Source: Cellulomonas soli (GTDB lineage Bacteria > Actinomycetota > Actinomycetes > Actinomycetales > Cellulomonadaceae). Taken from it: a stretch of 64,000 nt of DNA. This document shows, in pieces, positions 12,624-18,745 of the stretch. The position numbers and the translations under genes were made by a program. How positions within the stretch are numbered: the first letter of the stretch is position 1; each line of letters opens with the position of its first letter. The notes below the pieces were generated by a model. That model saw only the letters and a program-made list of their open reading frames with translations, ran no database searches and was not told the DNA's origin. The stretch is from NCBI RefSeq assembly GCF_013409305.1, contig NZ_JACBZJ010000001.1, forward strand, positions 2,170,001-2,234,000, in the 5' to 3' direction.

Positions 12624-12733
12624 CACGGGCAGTTGAGCGCACCCCCCGCAGTTAGCATCGAACAACGCCGCCTCGTCTGTGCACCCGGGACGTCCCCGGA
12701 GGCCGACGAGCACGCCGCTCGTGAGGAGTGCAC

Positions 12734-15313
<2,580 letters not shown>

Positions 15314-15349
15314 CGCACCCCGGCACGACCGACGACGCCCCCGGCCCCT

Positions 15350-15352
15350 CGT
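15350..15352. repeat. Target-site duplication CGT, left copy
   Basis: CGT directly precedes the left inverted repeat. The same triplet follows the right inverted repeat at 16825-16827. Duplications of 2-3 bp are usual for IS30-family elements. Confidence 0.75.
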
Positions 15353-15380
15353 GGCGGATTCTCGGGGTCCTCGCAACACC
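15353..15380 (+). repeat. IS30 left inverted repeat
   Basis: The sequence runs from GGCGGATTCT to CGCAACACC and matches the reverse complement of 16797-16824 at 23 of 28 positions. The inner nine bases CGCAACACC are identical. Confidence 0.85.
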
Positions 15381-15387
15381 TGGTGGC

Positions 15388-16770
15388 CTACGTGGTCGTC
15401 AGTAGATCACGCAGGCGCTCGGCTGGGGTGCCCCAGTCGAGCGTCTTGCGTGGTCGGGCGTTGAGCTGTTGAGCGACGTGCTCGAGGTCGGCCGGTGAGT
15501 GGACGGACAGGTCGGTGCCCTTGGGGAAGTACTGGCGCAGCAGACCGTTGGTGTTCTCGTTCGACCCGCGCTGCCAGGGCGAGTGCGGGTCGCAGAAGTA
15601 GACCGGGACCCCGGTCGCGATGCTGAACTGCTGGTGGGCGGCCATCTCACAGCCCTGGTCCCAGGTCAGCGACCCGCGCAGGTGCGCCGGCAGAGACCCG
15701 ATCAGCGGGACCAGCACATCGCGGACCTCTTCGGCGGTGTGCCCGCCGGGCAGGTGCCCGAGCATCACGTAACGGGTCGAGCGCTCGACCAGGGTCACGA
15801 TCGCCGAGCGCGACCCCGTCCCGACGATCAGGTCGCCCTCCCAGTGCCCGGGCACCGCCCGGTCGGCGACCTCGGCCGGCCGCTCGGAGATCATCACCAT
15901 CTCATCGACGAACCGAGGCGTGCGCTGCTCGGGCGCCCGGTGGGGCTTGCGGCGGGTGCGCCCGGTGCGCAGCGCGTCGGCGACCTCCCGGCGCAAACCG
16001 CCGCGGGCCTGGACGTAGATCGCCTGGTAGATCGTCTCCACGCTCACCCGCATGCTCTCGTCGTCCGGGAACTCCCGGACCAGAGCGTGACAGATCTGCT
16101 CGGGAGACCACTGCTCGGCAAGCCTGCCCGCGACGTAGTCACGCAGGCGACCGTGCCGGGCGAGCTTGGCCTGCCGGGGCCGCGACCTGCCCGAGGCCCA
16201 CGACCGGTGCGCGCGGTGCGGAAGGTAGATGCCGTCGACGGACCTGGCGCTGATCTCACGCATGATCGTGGACGCGGGCCGACCCAGTGCCCGCCCGATC
16301 GCGCGAAACGACTCACCTCGACGGCGCAGATCGGCGATCTGCTCACGCTCGACCAGGGTCAGGAACCGAGGGTGCAGCACGGCCTCCACGACGGCCATCG
16401 ACGGCCCGATCGGCGGGGTGACCGCCGTGGTCTCACCGGTGCGGTAGTCCACCTTCCGGCCGTCGGGATAGATCCGGGTATGACCTCGCGAGAGCACGCC
16501 CCGATCCCAGTCCCGAGCAGTGCGCACGTGCACGCTGACACGCCGAGCGGCCTGCCGTCGGCTGACTCCCTGAGCGCGCAACCGTTCGTACTCCGCCCGA
16601 CCAGGATGCCCACCCCGGCCGCCAGTGCCTGTCCCGCGGAGACCGGCCTTGCGCACCCACCCGAACGCCGTGTTCAGATTCACCCCGACCTCACGCGCAG
16701 CGGCCGAGACGTTCCCCTCCTCCACCGCGAGGGCCGCGAAGAACAACCCCTTCAACTCCAACGACGACAC
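15388..16770 (-). CDS. IS30-family transposase
   Basis: The 460-residue protein has an N-terminal helix-turn-helix (GNVSAAAREVGVNLNTAFGW), a second IS30-type HTH region (LVEREQIADLRRRGESFRAI, then GRALGRPASTIMREI) and the DDE catalytic core: D313 in WEGDLIVG, D371 in LTWDQGCEM and E405 in SNENTNGLLRQYFPKG. The 33-residue gap between the last two is typical of the family. The start is GTG at 16770, directly after a strong hairpin, so read-through messages would have a structured leader. The frame is intact. Transcription from clpC would run antisense to it. Confidence 0.93.
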   Translation of the reverse strand: MSSLELKGLFFAALAVEEGNVSAAAREVGVNLNTAFGWVRKAGLRGTGTGGRGGHPGRAEYERLRAQGVSRRQAARRVSVHVRTARDWDRGVLSRGHTRIYPDGRKVDYRTGETTAVTPPIGPSMAVVEAVLHPRFLTLVEREQIADLRRRGESFRAIGRALGRPASTIMREISARSVDGIYLPHRAHRSWASGRSRPRQAKLARHGRLRDYVAGRLAEQWSPEQICHALVREFPDDESMRVSVETIYQAIYVQARGGLRREVADALRTGRTRRKPHRAPEQRTPRFVDEMVMISERPAEVADRAVPGHWEGDLIVGTGSRSAIVTLVERSTRYVMLGHLPGGHTAEEVRDVLVPLIGSLPAHLRGSLTWDQGCEMAAHQQFSIATGVPVYFCDPHSPWQRGSNENTNGLLRQYFPKGTDLSVHSPADLEHVAQQLNARPRKTLDWGTPAERLRDLLTTT

Positions 16771-16811
16771 GATCCCCGCAACTCCCTGAAACTCAGGGTG
16801 TTGCGGGGATC
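16771..16811. repeat. Hairpin abutting the transposase start codon
   Basis: GATCCCCGCAA (16771-16781) pairs perfectly with TTGCGGGGATC (16801-16811), and an inner stem CCCTGA/TCAGGG with an AAC loop closes the centre. The transposase GTG follows directly on the minus strand. Such hairpins in IS leaders usually limit translation from transcripts that enter the element from outside. Confidence 0.7.
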
Positions 16812-16824
16812 GCTAGAACCCGCC
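16797..16824 (-). repeat. IS30 right inverted repeat
   Basis: This is the partner of the left repeat. It partly overlaps the right arm of the internal hairpin at 16771-16811. Confidence 0.85.
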
Positions 16825-16827
16825 CGT
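16825..16827. repeat. Target-site duplication CGT, right copy
   Basis: CGT directly follows the right inverted repeat and matches the left copy at 15350-15352. Confidence 0.75.
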
Positions 16828-16881
16828 AAGAGGGACCGGGGGCGTCGTCGTGTGGGGCTCGTGAAGATCGAGGTCGGCCCC

Positions 16882-16909
16882 GTGACCCGCGCGTGACCGC
16901 TGTTACCCT
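16882..16909 (+). promoter_or_regulatory. Possible promoter of the GH64 gene
   Basis: GTGACC (16882-16887) and TACCCT (16904-16909) are 16 bases apart, about 135 bases before the GH64 start. The match to consensus is moderate. The site lies 58 bases beyond the insertion element. Confidence 0.35.
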
Positions 16910-17044
16910 TTCGAGACATTTCGGACATGCCGCCTCGTGCGGCCGGCCCTGATGTACGCGTGCGCCCGGCGCCTCACAGCCGGCGGACGTGGCACGGCCG
17001 CGGGCTCGCCCGTGGCTTCGCTCGGGGGGGCGAGAGGAACGATC

Positions 17045-18745
17045 ATGCGCAGAATCATCCGAGGAGCGGCCCTGGCCGCGGGGGCGCTCGCCCTGCTCGC
17101 GGGGCCGGGGGTCGTCGCACCGGCGCAGGCCACCGGACCCGACGTGCTGCCGATCACGGTGGCCAACCAGACCGGTCTCGGCGACCAGGTCCACCTGTAC
17201 GTGCTCGGCACCGACCTCGCCACCGGCAAGCTCGGCTGGGTCGATGCGGTCGGCGCGTTCCACGCCTGGCCCGCGGGCAGCAACCCGCCGTCACCCGCAC
17301 CCGACGTCTCGATCAACGGCACCGCGACCGGCGGCAGCACCACCGTGAAGGTGCCGCGCGGGTTCTCCGGGCGCATCTACTTCTCGTTCGGGGAGACGCT
17401 GCCGTTCTCGCTCACGCCCGACGGGCTCGTGCAGCCCGCGCCGTGGGCGTCCGGCGACCCGACCTCCGACATCCTGTTCGACTGGAGCGAGCTCACCTAC
17501 AACGACGCCGGGCTGTGGATCAACAGCTCGCAGGTCGACATGTTCGCCGTGCCGCACGCCGTGACGGTGACCGGCTCGGACGGGACGACGTCGACGACCG
17601 GGCAGATGGTCGCGGGCGGTCGTGAGCAGGTCGTGCAGACGCTGCAGGCCGACCCGGCGTGGGCGAAGACCGTCGTCACGCGGGACGACGGCACCGTGCT
17701 GCGCGTCCTCGCACCGGGCAAGGCGGCCAGCGCCGGCCTGCTCGACGCCGGCTACCTCGACCCGGCGATCGCCTCGGCGTGGTCCGCCTACTCCACGCGG
17801 TCGCTGACCGTCGCACCGTTCAGCAACCAGCCGTCCGTGACGTTCACCGGCCGCACGTCGGGCGGCGTGCTGCGGTTCACCGACACCTCGGGCGCCCAGG
17901 TCGCGACCTTCTCCCAGCCGTCCTCGGCGGATGTGTGGGGCTGCGACGGTGCGCTCGCGGCGCCGAACGACCAGGTCGTCGGTCCGATCGCACGGACGCT
18001 GTGCGCCGCCCTCAACCGCGGCACGCTCGGCACCAGCACCCTCGAGCCCGTGACCGACGGCACGCAGTTCTACCGGACCACCCCGGTCAACCTGTACGCC
18101 AAGGCCGTCCACGCCTCGATGGCCGACGGTCGTGCCTACGCGTTCGCGTTCGACGACGTCGGCGCGTTCGAGTCGCTCGTGCACGCCGGCGACCCGACCA
18201 GCGCGCGCATCGACCTCTCTCCGCTGACCGGCGCGACGAGCGGCGACGACACCGGAACGGGTGACGGCACCGGCTCGGGCACCGGCTCTGGCTCTGGCTC
18301 GGACTCGGGCTCGGACTCTGGCTCTGGCTCGGGGTCGGGCGACAGCTCGGGGGACACGTCCGGCACGGTCGCGATCGTCAGCGCGTGGAACGGCAAGTGC
18401 CTCGACGTGCCCGCGTGGAACTTCGGTGACGGCGTGCGCGTCCAGCTGTGGGACTGCGCCGGCAGCACCAACCAGCAGTGGCAGCTCGTCGACGGCACGG
18501 TCCGCACGCAGAACGGTCAGTGCCTCGACGTCGCGTGGGGAGCGGTCGGCGACGGTGCTCCCGTGCAGATCGCGACCTGCTCGGGCAGCCCGGCGCAGCA
18601 GTGGGTGCTCTCCGACGCCGGTGACCTGGTGAACCCCCAGGCCGGCCGGTGCCTCGACGTGACGGACTGGAACGCCGCCAACGGTGCACGGCTGCAGATC
18701 TGGACCTGCGCCGGCACGGCCAACCAGAAGTGGTCCGCCGCCTGA
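17045..18745 (+). CDS. Secreted GH64 beta-1,3-glucanase with a ricin-type lectin domain
   Basis: The 566-residue protein has a Sec signal peptide ([20 protein letters not shown], cleavage near AQA). A GH64 catalytic domain spans about residues 33-400, with family stretches such as [24 protein letters not shown] and [11 protein letters not shown]64 enzymes cleave beta-1,3-glucan, often to laminaripentaose. A Gly/Ser/Asp/Thr-rich linker follows, then a C-terminal beta-trefoil with three QxW-type repeats ([29 protein letters not shown], each followed by QQW or QKW). The enzyme should be exported and bind fungal or plant glucan. The start is the ATG at 17045 with GAGAGGA upstream. A good terminator follows at 18771-18803. 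Confidence 0.92.

Follow-up and report, generated by a model that had tools for sequence, protein, structure and literature searches.

IS1272 and TnSha1 (IS1182 family) target terminator hairpins and other secondary structures in both orientations, with no primary-sequence specificity; IS1272 inserts bluntly at the hairpin base, the stem-loop is deleted and no duplication is formed (PMC4923244). IS30 of E. coli uses a nearly palindromic hot spot, shows IR targeting and generates a 2-bp duplication (PMC9333248). ISPsy8, of the IS3 family, is located at the symmetry axis of predicted REP hairpins with a 3-bp repeat, and the same paper includes IS1655 in a table of REP-associated elements, with 2/13 and 2/6 (PMC1525189); IS1655 is an IS30-family element (PMC2516522). 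Among the recognition determinants of group IIC introns is a DNA hairpin, for example a terminator (PMC3898094). ISLxc3 of Leifsonia xyli, an IS30-family element of 1511 bp, showed no conserved target in aligned 20-bp flanks (PMC2516522). These accounts are taken from the available parts of the papers cited. A literature search restricted to open-licence papers found no IS30 element described as targeting terminators or hairpin loops.

The element at clpC and its split hairpin

We analysed a stretch of 64,000 nucleotides from Cellulomonas soli (hereafter the window), in which an insertion element lies downstream of a clpC gene. An earlier note, made from the letters of the window, had described this element as a 1472-bp member of the IS30 family with a CGT duplication and 28-nt inverted repeats. 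Its coordinates agreed with that description (Table 1), the repeats being imperfect (82% complementary), and the transposase matched the IS30-family model NF033563 at 283.2 bits (cut-off 80). Residues D312, D370 and E404 (numbered from residue 2) were invariant in 26/26 aligned transposases; their spacing of 57 and 33 residues falls within the D-(54-61)-D-(33)-E pattern given for the IS30 family in the available part of PMC2516522. The element also has the inverted repeats and the short target duplication of that family, for which copy-out-paste-in transposition by way of a circle with joined ends is a further mark.

Table 1. Features of the element, its target and the neighbouring genes (window coordinates)
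Feature	Position	Strand	Remarks
ClpC-type ATPase gene	12728..15313	+	Pfam Clp_N, AAA_2, UVR, ClpB_D2-small; its 3' hairpin is the target
Split hairpin, 5' arm	15330..15350	+	
CGT target duplication, left copy	15350..15352	+	its G and T form the first half of the GTAA loop
IS30-family element	15353..16824	.	1472 bp; genome with five identical copies
Left terminal inverted repeat	15353..15380	.	
Transposase gene	15388..16770	-	460 aa; HTH_38, rve; start as in ORF listing
Left-end hairpin	15413..15446	+	in the last transposase codons; 61-94 nt inside the left end
Right-end hairpin	16769..16813	-	45 nt; spans AGGGAG and bases 1-2 of the listed start codon, GTG
Right terminal inverted repeat	16797..16824	.	
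CGT target duplication, right copy	16825..16827	+	
AA, second half of the GTAA loop	16828..16829	+	
Split hairpin, 3' arm	16830..16850	+	
GH64 and ricin-type lectin gene	16937..18745	+	downstream; true start maybe further in

The note had placed the insertion at the centre of symmetry, in a GTAA loop closing a 21-bp stem with one mismatch, and the fold bore this out. Rejoined without the element, the clpC site folded as a single hairpin with a GTAA loop (-46.6 kcal/mol, z -8.08), its arms being 95% complementary (one mismatch in 21). A chance hairpin was ruled out, because 0/200 shuffles folded as well. The left junction, GT/AA, is the symmetry axis itself, and the loop centre and the midpoint of the duplicated CGT are 1.5 nt apart. 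In the strict loop test described below the window copy scored 17.9 (threshold 11), which counts as loop insertion in a strong stem.

The note had further named a terminator loop as the target. The hairpin loop stood; the terminator is read from place and structure. The hairpin lies about 38 nt past the clpC stop according to the gene calls, and it has no T-run. A classical terminator scan of 15200-17050 gave 0 hits, as did Rfam and classical promoter scans of the same region. Its position after clpC, and the fact that relatives have a hairpin there too, suggest that it is the clpC terminator.

The genome contains five copies, identical over 1472 bp and with unrelated flanks, and four of them lie in hairpin loops: the window copy (L001) and L003 passed the strict gapless test, whereas L002 and L004 were assigned to bulged hairpins by fold. 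The fifth, L005, is inside a gene, without a hairpin. By eye, this gene resembles one for a HipA-type kinase.

Both checks proposed in the note, for copies of the element in other hairpin loops and for the empty site in related genomes, came out in favour of its reading. Seventy-seven genomes had a match, and in 29/29 relatives read a hairpin followed clpC at the empty site, often with a GTGA, GCGA or GCAA loop. At the empty sites of three other copies, a hairpin was found near the matching gene end in 12/14, 12/14 and 5/6 relatives read; about 150-170 nt were searched at these sites, and the hairpin found need not be the same one. A palindrome created by the element itself was ruled out, because identical copies have unrelated arms and the empty sites in relatives hold hairpins.

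Insertion sites and phylogeny of the clade

Relatives were drawn from 221 genomes of the family, from the best 80 of more named loci and from 396 genomes of the order, and a weight matrix built from the inverted repeats was used to locate element ends. Both ends were scored, with 30 bp of flank, at 107 loci, and dropping the repeats L137 and L149 left 105. At least 56.5% identity was found for 74 of these; without L084 (which shares the site of L083) and without L099 and L180 (off-clade on the tree), 71 distinct clade sites remained.

A site passed the strict test when a strong stem without gaps was present and the insertion lay in its loop or at most 2.5 nt from it. This gapless test was used instead of a fold test, which is too lax in GC-rich DNA (638/4200 controls pass). 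An enclosing-pairs test (27% of controls pass) and a duplex-energy test (34% of controls, at -20 and near) were discarded for the same reason, and a 13-pair score overlooked off-centre and bulged sites.

The strict test was passed by 55/71 clade sites, compared with 8/3150 random flank positions of all 105 loci. In 47/55 passing sites the centre of the duplication was at most 2 nt from the loop centre. Eight of the 16 failing sites passed the lax fold test, with its high rate among controls; those that passed neither test were L005, L134, L145, L147, L177, L178, L179 and L221. The duplication was 3 bp long at 52 of the 71 sites, 4 bp at 5, 2 bp at 2 and absent at 12. Outside the clade, 3/33 sites passed the strict test (L099, L104 and L223).

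A few loci deserve separate description. L210 and L213 (Nesterenkonia, nested in the clade) failed the loop test; by eye, their flanks seem to form stems with much larger loops. L147 (Nocardiopsis metallicus) lies among repeats that resemble a CRISPR array by eye. L083 and L084 are in one genome and share a palindrome as their site; the duplication there is TCGC. In another IS30 group (G121), L092-L095 are inserted in or beside short repeats of the type GGTAGAAC.

We inferred a tree of 76 transposases, for which eight rows were removed by hand, rows shorter than 340 aa were dropped and identical proteins were collapsed. With a strict or lax pass as the hairpin label, the tree required 10 label changes, compared with a shuffled mean of 23.7; 0/500 shuffles were as low. 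A 60-row branch (SH-aLRT 89), from many actinobacterial families, holds 44/46 of the hairpin-labelled rows. Nested within it is a 9-row group (SH-aLRT 100) whose members are not in hairpins. Inspected by eye, 10/11 loci of this sister group had at least one flank that codes for a segment of an IS3-type transposase at its first catalytic aspartate, with WLTDITEH/EGKLYLCAIKD as an example of the junction; the flanks of L189 encode no such segment. Pfam rve was found in 2/4 flank halves searched. Possibly, this nested IS30-type group homes into another transposon family, namely into IS3-type transposase genes. The group inserted there comprises L180, L196, L197, L202, L203, L205, L218, L220, L223 and L224. 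L223 has no duplication and lies between two inverted copies of its IS3-type target, an arrangement that points to an inversion mediated by the element.

Five IS30-type elements of 2.35 kb (L296-L300), from other genomes of the family, have a passenger region in common. The only passenger protein examined, that of L299, resembles the cadmium transporter CadD (PF03596, 142 bits; TIGR00779, 154.9 bits, which is under the cut-off). Of these five cadmium-type elements, three passed the strict loop test, L296 was placed in a hairpin loop by its fold alone, and L299 was in none.

Hairpins inside the element ends

Elements of the main clade carry hairpins of their own inside both ends. Read outwards, the right end of the window element folds at -37.7 kcal/mol, and its hairpin re-uses the inner half of the terminal repeat. 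At least 13/14 outer pairs were present in 46/47 distinct clade right ends, compared with 1/21 elsewhere. In 31 sequences aligned in one register, 8/21 pairs had changed on both sides, and Watson-Crick pairing was 0.842, compared with 0.708 in shuffles that ignore kinship. At the left end, the 52 nt at 15411-15462, read from the clpC side and beginning at the element's 59th base, fold at -32.9 kcal/mol. The left-end hairpin exceeded synonymous recoding in 41/42 scorable clade transposases, compared with 2/11 others, and is maintained through synonymous codon choice. Both hairpins were found in 45/52 distinct clade elements, 0/10 of the IS3-targeting group and 0/16 others (cut-offs 11.5 and 11; in the background, 7/507 stretches reach a score of 12).

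From its position over the putative ribosome site and the transposase start, the right-end hairpin would probably block translation from read-in transcripts. The left-end hairpin lies where the transcript of the broken gene would enter the element, and may take over from the lost terminator. These proposed roles are backed by few independent gains and losses.

For clpC itself, the earlier note had expected the insertion to weaken termination. This is doubtful in view of the conserved hairpins that elements of the main clade have at each end; clpC read-through into the element may be stopped early there. Antisense clpC transcripts through the transposase gene, and effects on the GH64 gene, are possible.

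At even odds, in our judgement, the end hairpins have nothing to do with the target: they would bind the transposase, or guard against read-in expression, without ending transcription. The right-end hairpin is a re-used half of the terminal repeat placed over AGGGAG and the listed GTG, as this reading would have it. Moreover, L099 and L104 (among the 16 others) target hairpins without having either end hairpin, and the cadmium-type elements have the left-end hairpin in 5/5 (score at least 13) and the right-end hairpin in none; these elements count against any simple rule linking end hairpins to hairpin targeting. Against an unrelated function, both hairpins track the main hairpin-targeting clade (45/52, compared with 0/26 in the remaining two sets), few independent changes being involved.

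A broader proposal is that these elements swap terminators, with structure-guided entry into gene-end hairpins and replacement hairpins of their own leaving little cost to the host, followed by a nested switch to IS3-type genes with loss of the hairpins. We hold it as a tentative idea, somewhat short of an even chance, and rate it lower because L099 and L104 lack both end hairpins and the cadmium-type elements have the left one only.

Recognition of the target and comparison with known systems

We consider it fairly probable, and the best explanation of the sites, that an actinobacterial IS30-family clade chooses stem-loop targets by structure, the main clade having end hairpins in addition. 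The target would be a strong GC-rich hairpin, in nature mostly one closely 3' of a gene; the transposase would make a staggered cut, mostly of 3 bp, and place the element inside the loop or at its edge. The sequence of the stem would be of little weight, and what is read is most likely the extruded hairpin, as a cruciform or in single-stranded DNA. Counted against this explanation are the 16/71 strict failures, a C-rich stretch in the arms, L099 and L104 with neither end hairpin, the five cadmium-type relatives with the left-end hairpin only, the lack of T-runs and the 12/71 sites without duplication.

An unlikely alternative is that the transposase reads a symmetric duplex sequence, as proposed for the hot spots of E. 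coli IS30, and that gene-end hairpins merely contain that sequence. The IS30 hot spots are nearly palindromic (PMC9333248, available part), and the C-rich stretch 7-9 bp from the loop fits such reading: it carried 0.82-0.97 bits in 33 perfect-stem targets and 0.24-0.62 bits in 31 native perfect-stem hairpins from 400 kb of three genomes, the latter set being too small for a firm motif comparison and a looser one (n=157) being contaminated with coding palindromes. Some sequence reading by the transposase is therefore possible. However, 5' arms of different sites were identical at 0.386 of positions, where composition predicts 0.372. The arms of one site paired at 0.936 (a value raised by choosing passing sites), compared with 0.389 for an arm and the partner of another site. 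Because arms of different sites are alike only at the level of composition, structure is the likelier cue. The loops also differed in size and sequence among sites, which rules out the GTAA (GNRA) loop as a targeting cue. A single repeated palindromic target, as in REP-type targeting, was not found, the palindrome common to L083 and L084 being the sole exception. Base reading of duplex DNA cannot sense the symmetry of an arbitrary sequence. For this reason, recognition of an extruded stem-loop would be the simplest account.

Given the same low probability is a coupling of insertion to termination, in which a paused RNA polymerase, an R-loop or a nascent RNA hairpin recruits the transposase. 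Based on simple codon-bias gene calls, 66/69 sites were intergenic, compared with 141/828 controls (two of the 71, with short flanks, were left out). A gene stop lay at most 150 bp away at 54/66 intergenic sites, at a median distance of 44 bp where a stop was found, and in 24 one-direction sites the T content of the 8 nt flanking the stem in gene direction was 27% after and 13% before it. Both observations would suit such coupling. The insertions themselves are at the loop centre, not downstream where the polymerase would pause, and both orientations are used: 24 sites were between convergent genes, 19 after a gene in the direction of the transposase gene, 11 in the opposite direction and 12 without a near stop. 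Since T is only mildly enriched, and no classical T-run terminator was found near the window site, the word terminator refers here to place and structure. Random insertion with survival of only the harmless copies, which the mostly intergenic sites might suggest, is very improbable, because harmless positions 15-60 nt away along the same intergenic stretches are unused (55/70 strict passes at the insertion, at most 2/70 at those distances) and relatives within the same genome group strike other targets.

If structure-guided choice is true, the clade would offer, in a natural and widespread setting, a DNA transposase whose sites are chosen by the shape of the DNA, and the nested sister group on a coding-sequence target would allow the target switch to be mapped to protein changes. 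Two ideas would become testable: that hairpin extrusion in GC-rich genomes of living cells is frequent enough to supply targets, and that mobile elements become less costly by supplying the very signal that their insertion destroys. An integrator that is guided by structure and spares genes might also be of use as a tool.

E. coli IS30 has a transposase of the same family, a nearly palindromic target and a short duplication, as does the element described here; unlike in our case, neither "hairpin" nor "terminator" (0 occurrences of either) figures in the available part of PMC9333248. ISPsy8 resembles our element in inserting at a hairpin axis with a 3-bp repeat, and differs from it, as far as the available account goes, in targeting one repeated sequence family with a transposase of another family. 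Group IIC introns likewise have a DNA hairpin as target determinant, although they are RNA-based retroelements. The ends of ISLxc3 are close to those of the hairpin-targeting clade, and target structure is absent from the account in the available part of PMC2516522; ISLxc3 is likely a candidate unrecognised member of the clade.

The closest precedent in the papers as available is IS1272 in terminator hairpins. Like IS1272, the element described here targets hairpins, mostly probable terminators, in both orientations and apparently without primary-sequence specificity. The stem-loop replacement of IS1182/IS1272 was not seen: unlike IS1272, this element enters the loop, both arms stay at the passing sites, and a duplication, mostly of 3 bp, was present at 59/71 sites.
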